Source: a virus
Strand: one strand, 5' to 3'
DNA: 20,959 bases
Virus record (IMG/VR): IMGVR_UViG_3300047369_000255
Coordinates: 1 to 20,959 of that record
Positions 3,223 through 12,443 of the stretch are shown here, piece after piece (position 1 is the stretch's first letter; each line of letters starts with the position of its first letter). Position numbers and translations under genes: made by a program. The notes under the pieces are model-generated. The model worked only from the letters and a program-made list of their open reading frames with translations. It was not told the DNA's origin and searched no databases.

Positions 3223-3554
3223 GTTGGGGTAGCTACAGCGAATACTTAGAAGAGTGGGAACGTTTTGAAGCATCAAAAGACCTTTACGAAGAACTTAGAT
3301 TTTTAGTAGTAAGAATCAATTTTAATAAAAGACTTTTAAGTTCAAAGAACTGGACACCAACTCGAAAAGACATCATAAAACACAGAGAACGATTTGAGGA
3401 ATATCTAGATTTATTTAAAGAAATAAGCTCAAAACTTAAATTAATTAATTATAATTACTTTCCCAAACGACTTAAAACAATAAAAAAATCAATAGTTAAA
3501 ATCAAAAATTATGACACGCAAAGAACAACTAAACAAACTCTTCATAGAGTTTAA
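3219..3554 (+). CDS. helical early protein of unknown function (111 aa)
   Basis: The start is the ATG of an ATGA junction. The product is rich in Lys, Glu, Leu and aromatic residues and predicted largely helical (YLEEWERFEASKDLYEELRF near 9-28, KHRERFEEYLDLFKEISSKL near 54-73). Its last 15 codons overlap the next gene by 44 bases, where the protein turns into a basic tail (DTQRTTKQTLHRV). That tail may simply be what the overlap permits. I recognise no family. Confidence 0.65.
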   Translation: MSWGSYSEYLEEWERFEASKDLYEELRFLVVRINFNKRLLSSKNWTPTRKDIIKHRERFEEYLDLFKEISSKLKLINYNYFPKRLKTIKKSIVKIKNYDTQRTTKQTLHRV

Positions 3555-3891
3555 TCTAAGTGAAGAGGACACTTTTAAACACTCTCATTATCACATTATA
3601 ACGAGAAGCGGAATAGACAAAATTCAGGCAGACTCAGGAATCTTAATTGAATACACACTTAAACATTACAACCCTGACACAAAAACCTGTGTAATAAAAG
3701 CCATAGGACAACTAAAAGACGTAGTAATTGAAACATTCGGAGAGGCAGCTCCCGACAATAATAGAAACGCCTATCCTGTAGCAATTGCAGAAAAAAGAGC
3801 AATGTCAAGAATAGTGTTAAAATTATCGGGGCTTTATGCTTTGGGTGTATTTGGAGAAGATGAGTTTAAAGAGGATTTAAAAAAGAAATAA
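3511..3891 (+). CDS. putative single-strand annealing protein (Rad52/ERF-like)
   Basis: The protein has 126 residues. The segment NAYPVAIAEKRAMSRIVLKLSGL (87-109) resembles the conserved A-E-x-R-A-x-x-R-A region of phage annealing proteins. The region before it (ITRSGIDKIQ near 30-39, then two strand-like stretches) fits the same type. At 126 residues it is shorter than typical Rad52 or ERF proteins, so it may be a minimal core only. Its neighbour two genes on is a YqaJ-type exonuclease, the usual partner in a lambda-Red-like pair, and an SSB-like protein follows. The function is inferred from this context plus the motif; an accessory protein of unknown role is the alternative. Confidence 0.5.
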   Translation: MTRKEQLNKLFIEFNLSEEDTFKHSHYHIITRSGIDKIQADSGILIEYTLKHYNPDTKTCVIKAIGQLKDVVIETFGEAAPDNNRNAYPVAIAEKRAMSRIVLKLSGLYALGVFGEDEFKEDLKKK

Positions 3892-5694: not shown

Positions 5695-6111
5695 ATGACA
5701 GATTTACCGTGGTTTAAATTCAATCCTAATCAATGGCTCACAGGCACAATAAGCTTTCTCAGCTTAGAACAGCAGGGAGCGTTTATGAAAGTAGTTTGCT
5801 ACTATTGGAGCAAAGAATGTAAAGTTCCTTTAGAACAATACAAAAGAATAATTCCTAACGACTTCAAAAGCCTTTTAGACGTTGGAATAGTAAAACAAAA
5901 AGGCAAAAATATTGTAATAGATTGGTTAGATAATCAATTTAAAGAGCGTAAAGATTCACACTCAAAAAGAGTAGAATCAGGAAGAAAAGGCGGGAAGCAT
6001 AGCTTAAGCAAAGCTCAAGCATTAAGAAAAGAACAGAAAAGAAAAGATAATTACGAAAACGACAACGTCTTAAAAGTATCTGAAGAGGTTAAAAAACTTC
6101 TTAAAAAATGA
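5695..6111 (+). CDS. DUF1376-like replication initiator with internal iterons
   Basis: A 138-residue protein. The N-terminus WFKFNPNQWLTGTISFLSLEQQGAFMKVVCYYW (6-38) matches the start of DUF1376/YdaU-type phage replication proteins, a winged-helix domain. The C-terminal third is basic (RKGGKHSLSKAQALRKEQKRKD, 98-119). That part is encoded by three 11-bp direct repeats, so the peptide KAQAL mostly reflects DNA that probably acts as origin, as in lambda O. It is shorter than most family members (200-300 residues) and lacks a C-terminal helicase-loader domain. It overlaps the ATPase gene by four bases, which suggests that the two act together at the origin. Confidence 0.7.
   Translation: MTDLPWFKFNPNQWLTGTISFLSLEQQGAFMKVVCYYWSKECKVPLEQYKRIIPNDFKSLLDVGIVKQKGKNIVIDWLDNQFKERKDSHSKRVESGRKGGKHSLSKAQALRKEQKRKDNYENDNVLKVSEEVKKLLKK
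5995..6027 (+). repeat. three 11-bp direct repeats inside the initiator gene (origin iterons)
   Basis: Units are AAGCATAGCTT, then AAGCAAAGCTC, then AAGCATTAAGA, head to tail with no spacer. Purine-rich DNA follows immediately (6028-6048). The last two units and the purine tract are repeated in the array at 11970-12060. One unit per helical turn, inside an initiator gene, is the design of lambda-type origins. Confidence 0.65.
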
Positions 6112-6977
6112 TAGTAGAAGACGACAACGCTTTAAAATACTTATACGACTATAAAGACGGTAAGATTAAGCAAGGTCTTAAGATAGGTTGTTTATTGGAT
6201 GAAAATCTCGTTTTAAAAAGAGGAGAGTTTAACCTTTGTTTAGGGTTGGACAATGTAGGGAAGACGTTTTGGTTATTATGGTATTTTACAACACTAGCAA
6301 AAAAACACAAATTAAAGTTTATTATTTGGAGTGGTGAGAATAGGTCCTCACAATTAAAAAGAGATATTATAGAAATGTGGACAGGCACTAAATTAAAAGA
6401 CTTAACGAAGTTTGAAATACTAAAATATAATAATGAAATAAGTAAATATTTTAAGTTTATTAATAACAGAAAACTTTATAGTCCTATTGATTTGTTTAAC
6501 ATCTTCGCAAACTCTGACGCTGATGTGTGTGCTATCGACCCTTATACTGGATTGAATCACGACAGACGAGTTAATCAATTTGACAGAAACTATAATTTCT
6601 GTAATAGTGCGAGAAAATTTTGTAATAAGACAGGTAAGACTTTGTTTGTAAGTATTCATCCTCAGACTGAGGCAGCTCGTAGAGTCTACCCTCCTGACCA
6701 CTTACTCAACGGACACATTCAAAACCCTAGAAAAGCTGACTGCGAGGGAGGCCAGGTGTTCCCAAATAGAGTCGATTCGCTATTCGTAGTCCACAGATTA
6801 ATATCACATAAGGAATTATGGCCTTTTACAGAGGTTCACGTTATGAAAATTAAAGACCGAGAATCAGGAGGAAGCTGTACAATGTTAGGAGAGCCTTTAA
6901 GATTTGATTTCAACAACGGTTTAGGTTTTACAATCGGAGGCATAAACCCACTAAAAAATACAGAGAATTATGGATGA
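6108..6977 (+). CDS. RecA/DnaB-like replication ATPase (helicase-like)
   Basis: The product has 289 residues and one RecA-type core. The Walker A motif is GLDNVGKT (46-53), Walker B is ADVCAIDPYTG (138-148, D144), and a strand ends LFVSIHPQTEA with H184 in the sensor position. MKIKDRESGG (246-255) follows, like the basic finger of DnaB-type helicases. The N-terminal helicase domain of full DnaB (about 150 residues) is absent, so this is a core-only version as in several phage replicative helicases and KaiC-like ATPases. Next to the initiator-like gene it most likely unwinds or loads at the origin. A RepA-type primosome ATPase is the alternative. Confidence 0.8.
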   Translation: MIVEDDNALKYLYDYKDGKIKQGLKIGCLLDENLVLKRGEFNLCLGLDNVGKTFWLLWYFTTLAKKHKLKFIIWSGENRSSQLKRDIIEMWTGTKLKDLTKFEILKYNNEISKYFKFINNRKLYSPIDLFNIFANSDADVCAIDPYTGLNHDRRVNQFDRNYNFCNSARKFCNKTGKTLFVSIHPQTEAARRVYPPDHLLNGHIQNPRKADCEGGQVFPNRVDSLFVVHRLISHKELWPFTEVHVMKIKDRESGGSCTMLGEPLRFDFNNGLGFTIGGINPLKNTENYG

Positions 6978-7239
6978 ATTAGAACTATTACTTAGAAAAA
7001 ACAAATTACATATCTTAATTATAAAAGCAATGCACGATTGTGATAAGGGTAAACCATCTAAAAATAGATTAGATGCCTTAGACACTCTAAAAACATCAAT
7101 GGAAACGATTCACGAGTTAGCAGAACACAATAGAAACTTATTAAAAGAAGTAAGAAAGCTTAGACTAAACAATGCATTACAGACAAAGGATATAGTAGAA
7201 TTGAAACTAAAAATAAACACTTTAGAAGAGTGGAAATAA
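6970..7239 (+). CDS. coiled-coil protein of unknown function (89 aa)
   Basis: The gene overlaps the ATPase gene by eight bases. The product is largely helical and charged, with leucines at heptad spacing from about residue 45 to the end (TIHELAEHNRNLLKEVRKL, VELKLKINTLEEW). It has no cysteine pair and no enzyme motif. It may be an oligomeric accessory of the replication ATPase before it, but only position suggests that. Confidence 0.65.
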   Translation: MDELELLLRKNKLHILIIKAMHDCDKGKPSKNRLDALDTLKTSMETIHELAEHNRNLLKEVRKLRLNNALQTKDIVELKLKINTLEEWK

Positions 7240-7250
7240 AATAAAAAATT

Positions 7251-7364
7251 ATGAATTACTTATTAAGTCTTTTATTGATATCACATTTTATAGCTATATT
7301 GACTGGAATGTTTTTAATTAGATTAATTGATATATATTTTAACGATGAAGAAAAGAACCCTTAA
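7251..7364 (+). CDS. single-pass membrane protein (37 aa)
   Basis: The ATG follows an A-rich leader 11 bases after the previous stop. Residues 3-30 are hydrophobic (LLSLLLISHFIAILTGMFL), then a short acidic tail (NDEEKNP). One membrane span is predicted. It overlaps the next gene by 20 bases. No family is recognised. Confidence 0.5.
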   Translation: MNYLLSLLLISHFIAILTGMFLIRLIDIYFNDEEKNP

Positions 7365-7536
7365 CGAATACCGACAAGTCAAAGACTCAGTTTATACTCA
7401 GATTTACGAGGACGAGTTAAAGACGAACAGAATACTTAGTTACATACTAAAAAAGTATTGTGATAAATACCCAAACGATAAAGACTTAGGACAACAAATA
7501 AGAAAACTAATAAACGATGGCACTGAACGCAAATAA
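7345..7536 (+). CDS. small basic helical protein (63 aa)
   Basis: I chose ATG 7345 (MKKRTLNEYRQ) over a TTG six codons upstream, because the protein-like part begins here and an A-rich stretch precedes it. The 63-residue product is charged and helical (DELKTNRILSYILKKYCDKY). It overlaps the next gene by 20 bases. No motif is recognised. Confidence 0.6.
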   Translation: MKKRTLNEYRQVKDSVYTQIYEDELKTNRILSYILKKYCDKYPNDKDLGQQIRKLINDGTERK

Positions 7537-7879
7537 AAAAGGAAAAAATTTCGAGAGAAAAATAGCAAACGAATTAAGCAAAGAGTTTAACTGTAAAATT
7601 CGAAGGACTCCGCTTTCAGGCGGGATGGATTTTAAAGGAGACATTCTTTGTATTGACGATAACTCTATTATGTCAGAGTTTTCTTGGGAGTGTAAGAACC
7701 AAGAGAAACTAAATATTTGGAAGGCTCTCGCTCAGTCTCGTAATGACGCACCGAGAGGGACTATTCCTTTGGTCTGTTTTACGAAAAACTTTGAGTCAGA
7801 ATATGTTGCTGTACAGTTCAACGACTTTGTAAATATTGTTAAAGAATTAGAAGAGTTAAGAAATGAAAGAAACACTTAA
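7517..7879 (+). CDS. PD-(D/E)XK nuclease, Holliday-junction-resolvase-like
   Basis: A 120-residue nuclease. The core is complete: KKGKNFERKIANEL with E13, then RTPLSGGMDFKGDI with D42, then FSWECKNQ with E58 and K60. After it, NIWKALAQSRNDAPRGTIPLVCF gives the Q/R-containing helix and last strand of the fold. This layout is shared by archaeal-type Holliday junction resolvases and small phage endonucleases. It could cut branched replication or recombination intermediates before packaging; this is inferred from family and place. It is the third nuclease-like gene in the operon and the one with the clearest active site besides the YqaJ-type enzyme. Confidence 0.75.
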   Translation: MALNANKKGKNFERKIANELSKEFNCKIRRTPLSGGMDFKGDILCIDDNSIMSEFSWECKNQEKLNIWKALAQSRNDAPRGTIPLVCFTKNFESEYVAVQFNDFVNIVKELEELRNERNT

Positions 7880-8207
7880 TAAAATAGCTGATATTATAGA
7901 CGACTATAATACTACTGACATCTTTGACGGTCAGACGCTAAACAACCAATTAAAACAACTTACGTCTATGTTGTACCACGTTGAAACAATAAGAACGAAA
8001 GCACACCAAGACTTTGAGTCTGTTATTCATAATAAAGTAAATGAAGGTTTTAGCGTAGCAAGGGCAACAAACGAAGCTAACGTTGCTGTTCCCGAGATGT
8101 ATAGACTAAGAAGATTATTGGAATCTGGGTATCGTGTAGCCGATTCAATGAGAACTAACATAAGTTTTTTAAAGTCTGAAATGTATAATGTTCAAAAAGA
8201 TTATTAA
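7863..8207 (+). CDS. conserved-looking helical phage protein of unknown function (114 aa)
   Basis: The gene overlaps the resolvase-like gene by 17 bases. The product is all-helical by appearance: residues 1-50 (LNKIADIIDDY, NNQLKQLTSMLYHVETIRTKAH), then VNEGFSVARATNEANV, then YRLRRLLESGYRVADSMRTN. No catalytic pattern or membrane segment is seen. I recognise no family with confidence. The helical-bundle look would fit a structural or scaffold-like accessory factor. Confidence 0.65.
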   Translation: MKETLNKIADIIDDYNTTDIFDGQTLNNQLKQLTSMLYHVETIRTKAHQDFESVIHNKVNEGFSVARATNEANVAVPEMYRLRRLLESGYRVADSMRTNISFLKSEMYNVQKDY

Positions 8208-8216
8208 TTTTACAAA

Positions 8217-8705
8217 ATGAACAACAAGCTTATTAAGAAAATAGAGAATTTTATTTTGTTTATTGGTAGAGAATACCGAGTTGTTCAAATAGAAGATTTT
8301 AAACAGGATATAATCTTACTCTTATTAGAAAAGGGCGAAGACTTTATTTTGCAATTAGATAGCGAGAACAGTATTAAAAAATATATATATAAGCTTTGTC
8401 TGTTTCAAATAATAAACGAGAGAGGACAGTATCAAAAAAAGTATTATATACCTGCTCACTTTCAAGACTTAAAAGATATAGACACTTACTCAAATACTTG
8501 TTTCAAAGATGAGGTATTAATTGAATTAGTTGACTCACTATCGGGATTAGATAAGATACTTATTGAGCAGTTATTAATTTGCAGAGGCATTAAGTCTTGT
8601 CTATCTGAAAAAAGTAAAATAAGCAACTCCACTATCAATTTTAAAATAGAAGAGTTATCAAAAAGAATTAAACAAAAATGGCAATTAAACGAATTTTATG
8701 GTTGA
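8217..8705 (+). CDS. putative sigma-70-like transcription factor
   Basis: The protein has 162 residues. Residues 26-70 (EDFKQDIILLLLEK, then KKYIYKLCLFQIINERGQYQKK) resemble the region 2 helices of small sigma factors. Residues 101-155 (LVDSLSGLDKILIEQLL, then SEKSKISNSTINFKIEELSKRIKQKW) read as the helix-turn-helix of region 4. The size fits an ECF-type sigma, but key aromatic residues of region 2 are not obvious. Being the last larger gene before packaging, it would suit a switch to late transcription. Both sigma identity and late role are inferences; a simple helix-turn-helix regulator is the alternative. Confidence 0.5.
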   Translation: MNNKLIKKIENFILFIGREYRVVQIEDFKQDIILLLLEKGEDFILQLDSENSIKKYIYKLCLFQIINERGQYQKKYYIPAHFQDLKDIDTYSNTCFKDEVLIELVDSLSGLDKILIEQLLICRGIKSCLSEKSKISNSTINFKIEELSKRIKQKWQLNEFYG

Positions 8706-8904
8706 GATAATTTTAATAATAACACTAACAACAGCCTGGACAGATTATGCTCGTCCAATGCTTTATATATTAGACTACAAACCTTTTAACTGTAGTTTCT
8801 GCCTAACGTTTTGGCTTTCGATAATAGTATTTTTTATAACTTTTAATCCTATTGTGTTGTCGAGTTCGTTATTTTTACGTATAATAGAAAGACGTTTATT
8901 ATGA
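8698..8904 (+). CDS. small membrane protein with C-x-x-C (68 aa)
   Basis: The gene overlaps the sigma-like gene by eight bases. There is a hydrophobic segment at 2-13, then YKPFNCSFCLTFW (28-39) with C32 and C35, and a second hydrophobic segment at 38-60. A short C-x-x-C-L-T-F-W turn between membrane segments is known from small membrane proteins of the DUF1360 type. A holin or membrane-anchoring role is possible but not shown. Confidence 0.6.
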   Translation: MVEIILIITLTTAWTDYARPMLYILDYKPFNCSFCLTFWLSIIVFFITFNPIVLSSSLFLRIIERRLL

Positions 8905-9176
8905 ATGTAGATAAAGTAATTAAGATATATAAGTTAACTTCAGCTTTTCCGTCTAGTATTGGATTAGATTATTTAAAAAATGAGTTAGACCCTATACTAA
9001 AACAAATAAACCCTGACATTAGGATTAGTTGGGCTTGTAATAGTTGTGTAAAGAATCAAATGTCACAATTATACGGATGGTTAATGAAGAAAGAAGAGAC
9101 AGAGAAAAAAGTAGTTAAAAAGAAAACAGTAAAAAAGAATGTCAGAAAACAAACTCGAAAGAAAAGGGAAAGTTAG
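8901..9176 (+). CDS. small protein with C-x-x-C and lysine-rich tail (91 aa)
   Basis: The start is in an ATGA junction with the membrane protein. Residues 1-62 form a compact part with SWACNSCVKNQMSQLYGW (C46, C49). From residue 63 the protein is nearly all Lys, Arg, Val and Thr (KKVVKKKTVKKNVRKQTRKK), like a histone-H1-type tail. Nucleic-acid binding through the tail is likely. The Cys pair could hold a metal only with extra ligands that I cannot identify. The last 38 bases overlap the acidic protein that follows. Confidence 0.65.
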   Translation: MNVDKVIKIYKLTSAFPSSIGLDYLKNELDPILKQINPDIRISWACNSCVKNQMSQLYGWLMKKEETEKKVVKKKTVKKNVRKQTRKKRES

Positions 9177-9360
9177 CTATGGCTACTTTATAGACGAAGA
9201 GGGTCTATTCTATTACTCAGAAATGAACGGAGAAGTTTACGAGATGTTTGATATTAACGGAGTGTCTTCAATGACATTAAATGATAATTATGATTTTAAT
9301 ATTTTAGAATTAGCATATATATATAATTTAGATGAACTGGATAGAGAAGACGAACTATAA
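9139..9360 (+). CDS. small acidic protein (73 aa)
   Basis: The product is strongly acidic and aromatic (YFIDEEGLFYYSEMNGEVYEMFD; end LDELDREDEL). It starts inside the basic tail of the previous gene, in another frame. Strand-like segments in the middle suggest a small beta domain. No family is recognised. Its charge is opposite to that of the neighbour, so the two may bind each other. Confidence 0.6.
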   Translation: MSENKLERKGKVSYGYFIDEEGLFYYSEMNGEVYEMFDINGVSSMTLNDNYDFNILELAYIYNLDELDREDEL

Positions 9361-9367
9361 CACAGAA

Positions 9368-9508
9368 ATGATGAAACGAAGACTTACATATAACGGAAAG
9401 CAAGTCTATATTAAAAAACTAAAAAGCAAATACGCTTTAGTCTCCCACTATAAAGAGGGAAACATCAAACAGTTTAAAGTTAATATAAAAGACTTAGCTG
9501 ACATATGA
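9368..9508 (+). CDS. tiny basic protein (46 aa)
   Basis: The frame reads MMKRRLTYNGKQVYIKKLKS... and ends in an ATGA junction with the next gene, which supports it. An ATG at 9332 in the same frame would add 12 residues (MNWIEKTNYNTE) and overlap the previous gene by 29 bases; overlaps of that size occur elsewhere in this operon, so it is possible. The product has alternating strand-like segments with Lys and Tyr, like a small SH3- or OB-type piece. Function unknown. Confidence 0.5.
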   Translation: MMKRRLTYNGKQVYIKKLKSKYALVSHYKEGNIKQFKVNIKDLADI

Positions 9509-9771
9509 AGCTAACACCAAAAGAAATTGAGGAGCAAAAGAAACTTCACGGAGCTGAAGCGGTTAACTTCTTTGTGCGGTTTATGGAAGCTAGAGAGAGG
9601 TGGAGAAGACTACCCGATTATTTTATTAAAGAAGTGATTTCAAACAGTGACGATATTAGAACTAATAAAAACCTTAGAGGAGGAAATAATAGAACAAACA
9701 AACGGAAAATTCAAAAGCTCTTGGGAGATAGAGCGGCTGAAACTAGCACACGAAAGAAAGACGATGCCTAA
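9505..9771 (+). CDS. small charged protein upstream of terminase (88 aa)
   Basis: The first 50 residues (LTPKEIEEQKKLHGAEAVNFFVRFMEARERWRRLPDYFIKEVI) read like a normal helical protein. From about residue 50 on, the reading becomes Asn-, Arg- and Lys-rich (RTNKNLRGGNNRTNKRK) and less protein-like, while another frame over the same DNA reads well (9647-9820). The C-terminal third may therefore be real only by default, or the true product may shift frame. No family is recognised; position suggests an accessory packaging or DNA-binding role. Confidence 0.55.
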   Translation: MKLTPKEIEEQKKLHGAEAVNFFVRFMEARERWRRLPDYFIKEVISNSDDIRTNKNLRGGNNRTNKRKIQKLLGDRAAETSTRKKDDA

Positions 9772-9820
9772 ATGGGTTAGAGATTTAATTAAGAAGTATG
9801 AGCAAAAAGCTAACACCTAA
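9647..9820 (+). CDS. overlapping small helical protein, GTG start (57 aa)
   Basis: In the +1 frame relative to the gene at 9505, a stop at 9635-9637 is followed by GTG 9647 and 57 codons. The product reads TLEEEIIEQTNGKFKSSW, then EIERLKLAHERKTMPKWVRDL, then IKKYEQKANT. This is more protein-like than the frame it overlaps, with typical Glu/Lys/Leu codons and an amphipathic helical pattern. It ends 23 bases inside the small terminase gene. Either it is an overlapping gene using GTG, or it is the C-terminus of the 9505 protein reached by a frame change near 9637-9647. Confidence 0.45.
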   Translation: MTILELIKTLEEEIIEQTNGKFKSSWEIERLKLAHERKTMPKWVRDLIKKYEQKANT

Positions 9821-10268
9821 ACAGAGAAAATTTGCTGAAGAGTATGTTAACACAGGCAACGCTTCAGAGGCTTATAGACGAGCTTATGATGTAGGAAAGA
9901 ATACTTCAATTGATACCATTAAAGTAAACTCAAGTAAGATGTTATCAGATACTAACATACTACTAACTATCAAAGAGTTACAAAAGAAAGAAGCTGAGTC
10001 TTTTCAAATCACACGCAAGGACGTAGCTGAGGGTTATTTTAAGATGATTAAATCTTGGGAATATCTTATGGACCTAGCAGCAAAAGAAAACCTCTCTAAG
10101 GAGCAGAAAGCGAAGTTCTATTTACTTAAAGAAATGGTTAAAGGTTCTGACTATAGAGGAGCGTACGATTCTATTGCAAAGATGTTCGGACTCAACGCAC
10201 CTGACAAACAGGAGATAGAGCAGACTGTACACAATATTAATATCAATATAAAGCGTGGAAGCGACTGA
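9798..10268 (+). CDS. terS: terminase small subunit
   Basis: The protein has 156 residues. LTPKQRKFAEEYVNTGNASEAYRRAY (5-30) is the standard N-terminus of Terminase_2-type small subunits and carries the DNA-binding helix-turn-helix. A helical middle follows (KDVAEGYFKMIKSWEYLMDLAAKE, 74-97), and the C-terminus (NININIKRGSD) probably contacts the large subunit. The ring of small subunits recognises phage DNA and loads the large subunit. It overlaps the large-subunit gene by 14 bases, which implies translational coupling. Confidence 0.9.
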   Translation: MSKKLTPKQRKFAEEYVNTGNASEAYRRAYDVGKNTSIDTIKVNSSKMLSDTNILLTIKELQKKEAESFQITRKDVAEGYFKMIKSWEYLMDLAAKENLSKEQKAKFYLLKEMVKGSDYRGAYDSIAKMFGLNAPDKQEIEQTVHNININIKRGSD

Positions 10269-11433
10269 GATATTTGAGCGTAACTATGACAGCGAATCTA
10301 AAATCGTAGTTAATCGAGGAGGGACGAGAAGTAGTAAGACTTGGTCTTTAAATCAATTATGTGCTTTGTGGTTGATTAGTGGCAATTATGGCGAAGGTCA
10401 ATACTGCAACGAGGGTGTATGGACTACAGTACGTAAATATCGTACGAACTTAGACGGAACAGTTGTTAGAGATTTTGAAGATATATTGAAAGCTGAAGGT
10501 TGGTATAATTTAGTTGACCACAACAAGACTAAGAAACAATACAGAGTAGGAAAGAGATTAGTTGAGTTTATAGGAGCAGATGACGAACAGAAACTGAGAG
10601 GAGCTAAAAGAAATATATTATACTGTAATGAAGCAAACGAATTAGAATACAAACAGGAGTTCTTCCAGTTGTTAATGAGGACCGAGAATAAAATCTTTAT
10701 TGACTTCAATCCTGATGACGAACAAGTGTGGATAAATCAGGAGCTAGAGATTAAGCGTTCTAATGAAGTCGGAGACGTTGAGGTAATAGTATCTAATTAC
10801 AAAAACAATTCTTTCTTACCTAAGTCACTAATTAAAGAAATAGAATACCTACAGCAAACAGATAAAGAGTTTTGGAAGATATACGGTCTTGGTGAATACG
10901 GTAATATAAGCGGTTTAATATATGAGAATGTTAAATACGTTGACAGGATGCCTGACGCTAAACTCGTAGCGTATGGATTAGACTTTGGTTATAGCTTAGA
11001 CCCTGCAGCTTGTTTGGCTGTTTACAAACGAGATAAAGACTTATATTTAAAAGAGATAGTTTACGAGAAAGGGTTAACTAATCAGGACCTAGCTGAACGT
11101 CTTAAATCTATTGTCAATAGAGATGAGGTTATCTGTGATAGTGCAGAACCTAAATCAATAGAAGAGTTATATAGATTAGGTATAAACGCAAAACCCGCGG
11201 TCAAAGGTAGGGACTCAATACTAAACGGAATTGACATTCTTAAACGTTATAATATAAACGTTGTTAATAGTAGTAATTTAAAAAAAGAGTTTAGGACATA
11301 TAAATGGGCGACAGACAAAAACGGGAACAGTCTACAAAAACCAATCGGCTTGGACCACTTAATGGATGCGTTGAGATACGTTGCTTTAATACATTTAAAG
11401 GAACATAACAAAGGTTGGTATTCAATTAGATAA
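10255..11433 (+). CDS. terL: terminase large subunit, PBSX type
   Basis: The product has 392 residues with a GTG start overlapping terS; no ATG precedes the Walker A motif at a fitting distance. ATPase motifs: RGGTRSSKT (21-29), ILYCNEANE with the catalytic Glu (121-129), and the coupling strand FIDFNPDD (148-155). RNase-H-like nuclease motifs: GLDFGYSLDP with D243, EVICDSAEPK with D295, and GLDHLMDALRYV with D367 and D371. It pumps DNA into the prohead and cuts it. The length is slightly below the usual 410-450 residues of the PBSX-type family but all motifs are present. Instead of portal and head genes, a regulatory block and tail genes follow. Confidence 0.95.
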   Translation: MEATEIFERNYDSESKIVVNRGGTRSSKTWSLNQLCALWLISGNYGEGQYCNEGVWTTVRKYRTNLDGTVVRDFEDILKAEGWYNLVDHNKTKKQYRVGKRLVEFIGADDEQKLRGAKRNILYCNEANELEYKQEFFQLLMRTENKIFIDFNPDDEQVWINQELEIKRSNEVGDVEVIVSNYKNNSFLPKSLIKEIEYLQQTDKEFWKIYGLGEYGNISGLIYENVKYVDRMPDAKLVAYGLDFGYSLDPAACLAVYKRDKDLYLKEIVYEKGLTNQDLAERLKSIVNRDEVICDSAEPKSIEELYRLGINAKPAVKGRDSILNGIDILKRYNINVVNSSNLKKEFRTYKWATDKNGNSLQKPIGLDHLMDALRYVALIHLKEHNKGWYSIR

Positions 11434-11457
11434 ATTAATTTACAGAGGTAGAATAAA

Positions 11458-11490
11458 AAAAGTGTAAGAAAAGTGTAAGAAAAGTGTAAA
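11458..11490 (+). repeat. three 11-bp direct repeats upstream of a promoter (operator-like)
   Basis: AAAAGTGTAAG occurs twice head to tail and a third time as AAAAGTGTAAA, each exactly 11 bases apart. The array ends three bases before the -33 region of the following promoter. It therefore sits where an activator or repressor bound on one face of the helix would touch RNA polymerase. Confidence 0.6.
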
Positions 11491-11492
11491 AA

Positions 11493-11525
11493 GTTTTTTA
11501 TATATATATTATATTTATATATTTA
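11493..11525 (+). promoter_or_regulatory. promoter of the first stand-alone unit
   Basis: TATATTTA at 11518-11525 differs by one base from the ideal TAnnTTTG. A GTTTTTT stretch about 20 bases upstream replaces the -33 TTTG, so the promoter is weak by itself and may need an activator on the adjoining repeats. Downstream, CATTGTAATTAA is shared with the promoter near 12188. Confidence 0.55.
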
Positions 11526-11552
11526 CATTGTAATTAATTAAAACCAAACACA

Positions 11553-11858
11553 ATGAAAGATTTAAAATTTAAAATTAACAGAACTAAAAAACAAAGAGAG
11601 AACTTAACACAACCTAAAACAATGATATTAAAAGTTTTACAAGACAAAATAAACATACGTCAAAAATTGGTTTGTTTAGTTTCTTGTGAAAACAACTTCT
11701 ATCAATTACTACAGCATAATATAAACGAGTTTGGGTTAAAGAAAATTATAGACATTAGTCAAGTTAAAGACATTAGAGACATTCACGTTATGAATATGAC
11801 AAACCACACTAAAAACGGTACTGTAATTAATTACTTTTCTAAACCAATTACACTATAA
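11553..11858 (+). CDS. stand-alone small protein of unknown function (101 aa)
   Basis: A single gene with its own promoter and terminator, placed after terL. The N-terminus is very basic (LKFKINRTKKQRENL). The middle (MILKVLQDKINIRQKLVCLVSCENNFYQLLQHNINEFGL) is mixed helix and strand, and the end has IHVMNMTNHTKNG. No membrane segment or known motif is seen. Its autonomous transcription and basic character would suit an accessory (moron-like) or host-directed gene, but that is only inference from layout. Confidence 0.65.
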   Translation: MKDLKFKINRTKKQRENLTQPKTMILKVLQDKINIRQKLVCLVSCENNFYQLLQHNINEFGLKKIIDISQVKDIRDIHVMNMTNHTKNGTVINYFSKPITL

Positions 11859-11880
11859 AATAAAAAACAAAAACTAACTA

Positions 11881-11910
11881 AAGAGCCACCGTAAAAAGTG
11901 GCTTTTTTTT
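11881..11910 (+). terminator. intrinsic terminator after the 11553 gene
   Basis: Stem AGCCAC (11884-11889) pairs perfectly with GTGGCT (11898-11903) around an eight-base loop, followed by eight T. The stem can extend by A-T and G-T pairs into the T run. Confidence 0.9.
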
Positions 11911-11969
11911 GCAAATAAATATTTTGTCATTAGTGACTAAATTAAACACTTTTAAGCTCTCAACAGAGG

Positions 11970-12024
11970 GAGCAATGCTAAAGCAATACTTAAGCAATGC
12001 TTAAGCAATACTCAAGCATTAAGA
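11970..12024 (+). repeat. five 11-bp direct repeats (iteron array)
   Basis: Units in order are GAGCAATGCTA, AAGCAATACTT, AAGCAATGCTT, AAGCAATACTC and AAGCATTAAGA, with no spacers. The consensus is AAGCAATRCTT. The last two units and the following purine tract nearly match 6006-6040 inside the initiator gene, including the identical final unit. A shared binding site for the phage initiator is the simplest explanation. Confidence 0.75.
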
Positions 12025-12113
12025 AGAGATAAGATAAGAAGAGAAAAGAAGAGATAAAATGACAATAGACTAAACAATAAAAGACTAGATTATAATAGAT
12101 TATATAATACCAA

Positions 12114-12146
12114 TAGTTAACTTGTAGTTAACTTATAGTGAACTAA
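12114..12146 (+). repeat. three 11-bp direct repeats upstream of a promoter (operator-like)
   Basis: Units are TAGTTAACTTG, TAGTTAACTTA and TAGTGAACTAA, contiguous. Each contains a GTTAAC or near-GTTAAC palindrome. The array ends 17 bases before the -33 TTTG of the next promoter. The sequence differs from the repeats at 11458 but the number and period are the same. Confidence 0.65.
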
Positions 12147-12163
12147 AAAAAACTTAAAAAAGT

Positions 12164-12195
12164 TTTGTAGTTTATAAATATTATATATATATTAG
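12164..12195 (+). promoter_or_regulatory. promoter of the second stand-alone unit
   Basis: TTTG at 12164-12167 and TATATTAG at 12188-12195 are separated by 20 bases, the spacing of Bacteroidota -33 and -7 elements. The spacer contains TTATAAATATTATATATAT, the same block as in the early promoter at 2560-2578. CATTGTAATTAACTAA follows, as in the other two leaders. Confidence 0.65.
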
Positions 12196-12229
12196 CATTG
12201 TAATTAACTAAACAACTAAACTTACAACT

Positions 12230-12394
12230 ATGACTTTAACCACACACGAAAAAATGCTTTTACAAGATTTATTAAGATTATCTAAAAGAGAAAATGAAAA
12301 AACTTTACACAATACTGAATTAAGTAAAGTAGTAAAAGATGATTTAGAATATGATGTTAAACTTGCTAAAGATTTATTAAATAAATTAAAGTAA
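12230..12394 (+). CDS. stand-alone small helical protein (54 aa)
   Basis: This 54-codon gene (MTLTTHEKMLLQDLLRLSKRE...) has its own promoter upstream and a terminator 20 bases downstream, so it is transcribed alone. The product is charged and helical, with leucines at helical spacing (EKMLLQDLLRLSKREN, then YDVKLAKDLLNKLK). It might be a small coiled-coil inhibitor or regulator. The codon pattern is normal for this genome. No family is recognised. Confidence 0.6.
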   Translation: MTLTTHEKMLLQDLLRLSKRENEKTLHNTELSKVVKDDLEYDVKLAKDLLNKLK

Positions 12395-12413
12395 AAACTA
12401 AACAACTAAATTA

Positions 12414-12443
12414 AGAGCTACTTTAACGAGTAGCTTTTTTTTT
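12414..12443 (+). terminator. intrinsic terminator after the 12230 gene
   Basis: AGCTACT (12416-12422) pairs perfectly with AGTAGCT (12429-12435) around a six-base loop, followed by nine T. Confidence 0.9.

Follow-up and report, generated by a model that had tools for sequence, protein, structure and literature searches.

To our knowledge, two-locus initiator control is known from very few phages, namely SPP1 and P4. In phage lambda, the iterons lie within gene O and are followed by a purine-rich, A+T-rich stretch, and there is one such locus. In the satellite phage P4, two distant cis sites, ori and crr, are bound by alpha and both are needed, while crr alone is no origin. The alpha protein and its ori site are mentioned in PMC6092414. 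In the Bacillus phage SPP1, oriL is located inside gene 38, and oriR belongs to the late region, where its segment is bracketed by transcriptional signals and also carries three moron genes; both origins present direct repeats plus an A+T-rich element and are bound by gp38, and it has been proposed that gp38 bound to oriR stalls forks and thereby sets off the synthesis of concatemers (PMC6316719, PMC3485210).

We analysed a viral window of 20,959 b, which corresponds to a whole IMG/VR record and carries two similar arrays of 11-bp units. As in SPP1, one array is located in the putative initiator gene, here called rep, and the second kilobases away in the late region; as in P4, there would be two distant cis sites for one, here putative, initiator. 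A preliminary description of this DNA had proposed two initiator-binding loci, and conservation, co-variation and DNA constraint make this the best-supported reading of the sequence. We assign a probability of about 0.72 to the two arrays being putative binding sites of one initiator (Rep), which would give two linked initiator loci 4–7 kb apart, a two-origin plan resembling that of SPP1.

Two arrays of 11-bp units and their surroundings

The gene hosting array 1, the two arrays, as determined by direct reading, and the tracts that follow them are the following:

5695–6111, + strand: rep, coding for a DUF1376-like/primosomal-protein-like putative initiator of 138 aa
5995–6027, + strand: array 1, located within rep and made of three contiguous units of the form AAGCnnnnCTn (11 bp), AAGCATAGCTT (5995–6005), AAGCAAAGCTC (6006–6016) and AAGCATTAAGA (6017–6027)
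6022–6058, + strand: purine-rich tract after array 1, 81% A+G and 22% G+C
11970–12024, + strand: array 2, five contiguous 11-bp units, intergenic and behind terL, GAGCAATGCTA (11970–11980), AAGCAATACTT (11981–11991), AAGCAATGCTT (11992–12002), AAGCAATACTC (12003–12013) and AAGCATTAAGA (12014–12024)
12021–12058, + strand: purine tract after array 2, 92% A+G, followed by 81% A+T DNA up to 12230

The last unit of both arrays is AAGCATTAAGA. Reading of the letters confirmed the three and five 11-mers, their common last unit and the purine DNA after them, all of which had been noticed before, and the proposed register of 6003–6035 against 12000–12032 was also correct (offset 5997). When the region of array 2 (11900–12210) was compared with the whole record by BLAST, it matched positions 5995–6050 at 82% identity over 56 bp (E 3.9e-11), and the similarity ended where the array and the purine tract end, the rest of rep giving no match. 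Array 2 was the best lag-11 repeat of the window (34/42 matches), above all values obtained in 300 dinucleotide shuffles (mean 23.7, maximum 28). As a stand-alone repeat array 1 was weak (14/22 lag-11 matches), and its strength comes from the cross-match to array 2 and from the relatives, not from its own repeat score. The likeness between the two arrays is not due to chance. GC skew across the window showed no switch at array 1 or array 2 and was uninformative for the origin search, because nearly all genes of the window are on one strand.

The neighbouring genes and signals are as follows:

6108–6977, + strand: gene immediately following rep, for a RecA-fold helicase-like protein (C-terminal part of a primase/helicase), PHROG 18375 with E 4.8e-18
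9798–10268, + strand: terminase small subunit (TerS), PHROG 51 with E 4e-20
10255–11433, + strand: terminase large subunit (terL), Pfam Terminase_3 and Terminase_3C
11477–11542, + strand: promoter-like block, copy 1, before the small ORF 11553–11858 and 73% identical to copy 2
11553–11858, + strand: small accessory ORF (moron-like)
11884–11911, + strand: intrinsic-terminator-like hairpin and T run, just upstream of array 2
12147–12212, + strand: promoter-like block, copy 2, a direct copy of copy 1, before the small ORF 12230–12394

By tblastn, the helicase-like gene matched phage primase/helicases. Array 2 sits between the terminator-like hairpin and the second promoter-like block, and there are cassettes on both of its sides, with a pair of small accessory ORFs and a terminator present in two copies. 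The DNA of ORF 11553–11858 was found in just two related loci (L008 and L011) besides the window, and the small ORFs around array 2 are gained and lost among relatives, while the array and its purine tract stay.

The sequence and predicted structure of Rep were also evaluated. Rep matched Pfam DUF1376 (PF07120) with an E value of 7.8e-4 and 20.2 bits, below the curated cut-off of 30.1, and for this reason we call it DUF1376-like only; the match to the PHROG primosomal protein was closer (E 9e-6). The AlphaFold2 model presented a confidently predicted winged helix (pLDDT 90–95 over residues 21–90, in the order H-H-H-E-E), followed by a long C-terminal helix, and array 1 lies in the codons for a poorly conserved, low-confidence linker. 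The best Foldseek match of the model was DnaD (2vn2, E 0.33). VIA-align gave a Z of 4.6 with DnaD (rmsd 3.1, 72 aligned) and of 3.9 with the Rep–DNA complex 5kbj (rmsd 4.0, 76 aligned), unrelated winged helices scoring at similar Z, and the Rep profile gave no match to the sequences of solved structures. Since the Pfam and PHROG matches are weak and the winged-helix matches have low Z, it is the gene context that suggests Rep as the putative initiator.

Arrays in related viruses

When viral contigs were scanned using TerL and Rep of four types as queries, about 230 loci were obtained. Contigs were scored when they held rep, terL and enough DNA behind terL together, and loci sharing a contig were counted once. 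Both arrays were present in 37 distinct contigs, 20 had the terL-side array only and three the in-gene array only. Two of these three end 1.1 kb (L126) and 0.95 kb (L143) behind terL; the third, L160, is truly devoid of a terL-side array within 5.3 kb of terL, indicating that the second site is not universal. No clade member with enough sequence lacked both arrays. The distance from the rep array to the terL-side array was 4.4–7 kb among the relatives. The near-complete L097 record held exactly two arrays, and its other matches to AAGCATWWAGA were isolated, with no adjacent units, or located in overlapping contig ends. The array-bearing viruses form a large group of marine phages of flavobacteria that are uncultured. 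A scan of genome contigs also found a distant terL in one Flavobacteriales MAG, which is a host hint only.

The unit ends AAGC..CT are general, and the middle of the unit is a lineage dialect that is common to both loci within a genome, the central bases being AATG or AATA in the group of the window, ACC in L097, GAAC or its complement GTTC in L199, and ACTACAGC in L075. Across seven Rep lineages, the two arrays matched with a mean score of 18.4 within genomes versus 11.2 between genomes, and when the pairing was permuted the true pairing alone (1/5040) reached 18.4. In 45 genomes, the partial correlation of the terL-side array was 0.68 with Rep given TerL and 0.37, which is not zero, with TerL given Rep. 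The window and L013 have TerL and TerS that are 90% and 89% identical, yet their arrays are unrelated (score 10), while the window and L228 are only 28% and 27% identical in TerL and TerS, yet their arrays are closely similar (score 28). This double dissociation of array and terminase speaks against a role in packaging and favours a binding protein that moves together with rep. Shared descent or gene conversion between the arrays could account for part of the co-variation. Because the two array copies change together in evolution, it is probable that DNA copying in the virus has two linked points at which it starts, or at which it starts and stops.

The codons of rep that overlap array 1 were also constrained. 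Among L097-type rep genes (66 different ones), the codons spanning the array and the purine tract showed zero synonymous diversity, compared with a mean over the gene of 0.48 of expectation (P 5e-5 for the array window); the rep genes of group A were under the same synonymous constraint over the array (P 0.002). Judging from these alignments, array 1 is selected as DNA and not only as peptide. With repeats in the putative initiator ORF, A+T-rich, purine-asymmetric DNA and DNA-level selection, array 1 presents the sequence features of a candidate lambda-type origin.

The in-gene array has been lost repeatedly. Rep lacks the array in group B (reps L013 and L018; TerL about 89% identical), where the only array is on the terL side and has the unit AGCAAATGCTG; no second AGCAAATG array was found anywhere in six records of this group. 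In L193–L195, the in-gene array is missing by a clean in-frame deletion relative to L069; L193 keeps the terL-side array, and L194 and L195 were not scorable for it. The Rep tree indicates at least two independent losses of the in-gene array, plus a third change at the long-branched L068. Since the terL-side copy is kept when the in-gene copy is lost, the ranking implied in the preliminary description, in which the in-gene array was the main origin and the terL-side array the second, may be reversed. The intergenic array 2 is also the more complete of the two in the window, and for both reasons we consider that it is probably at least a full origin. A tentative interpretation is that an origin has been caught moving, that is, that an in-gene origin was duplicated behind terL, the two copies co-evolved and the in-gene copy was then deleted, leaving the intergenic copy as the sole origin. 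If the origin did move, the initiator linker would have been freed from double coding in the lineages, at least two, that lost the in-gene copy.

Possible functions of the second array

We infer binding by Rep and firing at either site, and fork stalling may be involved. Rep would load on the 11-bp near-palindromic units, which are about one helical turn apart and would present one helix face, would open the adjacent strand, almost A/G-only over ~35 nt, as the unwinding element, and would hand over to the helicase encoded next door. A unit array with a purine tract in the same orientation at each locus would be the anatomy of a replication origin. The two loci may represent two origins, or an origin and an initiator-bound switch point, and the second site might also stall forks to start concatemer synthesis.

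Other explanations of array 2 were weighed against two initiator-binding loci. A decayed copy of the end of the initiator gene had been suggested earlier; on this reading, array 2 would be a decayed or truncated copy with no function, and a frame reading SNTQALRRDKIRREKKR is still present in the window and its close relatives. However, when 41 distinct versions of array 2 were compared, no conserved ORF spanned the array, the SNTQALRR frame of the window carried stops in most relatives, and the 11-bp period, which the preliminary description had proposed to check, persisted in relatives with broken frames. Within an intergenic region that changes fast, array 2 is the part that is conserved best; it is also longer than array 1 in the window, and the terL-side array changes in step with rep and persists where rep has lost its own. 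In addition, the similarity stops at the array and tract, and no relative among those examined carried simply an intact initiator gene at the second locus. A decayed copy is thus rejected as extremely improbable. A packaging-linked role had also been proposed: array 2 would be a pac/cos site or a TerS operator beside the terminase, its likeness to array 1 being secondary. The array does lie directly behind terL in nearly all relatives, in some of them a few bases from the terL stop, but in some relatives, such as L055, a methyltransferase-like gene separates the two, and the ends of 27 contigs of 29–32 kb are scattered round the genome and not located at the array. The unit type of array 2 is, moreover, dissociated from the TerS/TerL type in both directions and is also found inside rep, where it is under DNA-level constraint. 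As the array follows Rep more than TerS/TerL, this role is disfavoured and we regard it as improbable.

An initiator-binding control site would keep Rep as the binder and give array 2 another task, either as a titration/handcuffing locus, such as incA of plasmid P1, or as a fork barrier that switches theta to concatemer replication. The late-region placement, the terminator/promoter bracket and the accessory genes resemble SPP1 oriR, and the early genes of the window include a RecE-like exonuclease, the kind required for such a switch. Array 2, however, has complete origin parts (more units, a purine tract and an A+T-rich flank), and a pure control role would not explain why it is the copy kept when the in-gene array is lost; we consider this explanation unlikely, but with a chance worth keeping in mind. 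The units could also serve a transcription factor as operators, through which it would regulate rep as well as the promoter that follows array 2; a winged-helix Rep could autoregulate, and there is a promoter-like block after array 2 at 12147. Array 1 nevertheless lies near the 3' end of rep, where an operator of this gene would hardly be expected, the purine tract is constrained along with the units, and several relatives (L069 and L082 among them) have no comparable promoter copy after the array, making operators a very doubtful explanation.

Comparison with known replication origins

Natural genomes with both arrays, with the intergenic array only and with the in-gene array only, together with several iteron dialects, make it possible to address by comparison the reason for which a phage keeps two initiator sites, the role of the second one, as an origin or as a concatemer switch, and the way in which an origin moves. 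AAGCnnnnCT units before a AAGATAAGATAAG tract could serve as a candidate-origin marker in such genomes. No description of origins in these phages was found in a search of mostly open-access literature. In the cultured Flavobacterium phage morran9-1 and Leeuwenhoekiella phage Arctus_1, a DUF1376-type gene contains GCAATGC-type repeats and also an AGAAGA/GATAAG purine tract, and no second array was found behind terL or elsewhere in either genome.

As at the lambda ori in gene O, array 1 consists of iterons in the (putative) initiator gene, and the stretch after them is strand-asymmetric, rich in purines and rich in A+T; in contrast, lambda has one locus and longer iterons, and here there are two loci with 11-bp units. 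Unlike in P4, either array can be absent from a lineage. The closest resemblance in layout is to SPP1, with array 2 bracketed, here at the sequence level only, by transcription signals and accessory genes as oriR is, and with direct repeats next to A+T-rich DNA at both loci. The two loci are about 5–6 kb apart here as opposed to about 12–13 kb in SPP1, and contiguous 11-bp near-palindromic units, a DUF1376-like putative initiator and an adjoining helicase gene also set the present system apart. The virus group and host phylum are unrelated to those of SPP1, and the in-gene copy has been repeatedly lost here. Two distant initiator loci, one of them in the initiator gene, are a kind already known from SPP1; what is new, to present knowledge, is the host group, the DUF1376-like putative initiator, the unit, the spacing, the co-variation of dialects and the fact that the in-gene copy was lost repeatedly.

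Predicted accessory cassettes around the terL-side array

The terL-side array (five 11-bp units, 11970–12024) lies between two small ORFs (11553–11858 and 12230–12394), which are flanked by two pairs of duplicated blocks:

11477–11542 and 12147–12212, promoter-like blocks, similar direct copies
11862–11910 and 12394–12442, terminator-like blocks, similar direct copies

From this arrangement, the small ORFs with their duplicated promoter-like and terminator-like blocks are predicted to be exchangeable accessory cassettes. On the related contig L011, a near-identical counterpart of ORF 11553–11858 was located across the array, on the opposite side relative to the window. Immediately upstream of each promoter-like copy we observed one additional 11-bp direct-repeat array (11454–11489, TAAGAAAAGTG; 12113–12144, ATAGTTAACTT), unlike in sequence both the terL-side array and the one inside rep, the putative initiator gene; these two arrays are perhaps activator or repressor sites for the cassettes.

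Surroundings of the array in the window and its relatives

A hairpin-like sequence (GCTCTCAACAGAGGGAGC, 11956–11973), with a similar version in relatives, overlaps the first unit of the terL-side array, and an inverted repeat (GTCATTAGTGAC, 11926–11937) is found approximately 35 nt upstream, its counterpart in L010 and L011 being TTAGTCA..TGACTAA. In some relatives a DNA methyltransferase-like gene has apparently been inserted, with terL on one side and the array on the other (L055, 11180–11907; L143, after 7010), and in L115 the array follows terL at a distance of about 950 nt.

Related contigs L180 and L097

L180 carries a rep variant (3334–3834) whose in-gene array (GGCTTGAGGGTGGCTCAAGGGTGG...) is longer and G-rich; we read it as one more dialect, or lineage-specific set of central bases, of the 11-bp unit, and no terL side was seen for it on this contig. 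The two ends of the L097 record of 31,473 bases (L241 and L242) overlap across the terL-side array, with a few differences, which makes a circular or terminally redundant genome of about 30–31 kb probable.
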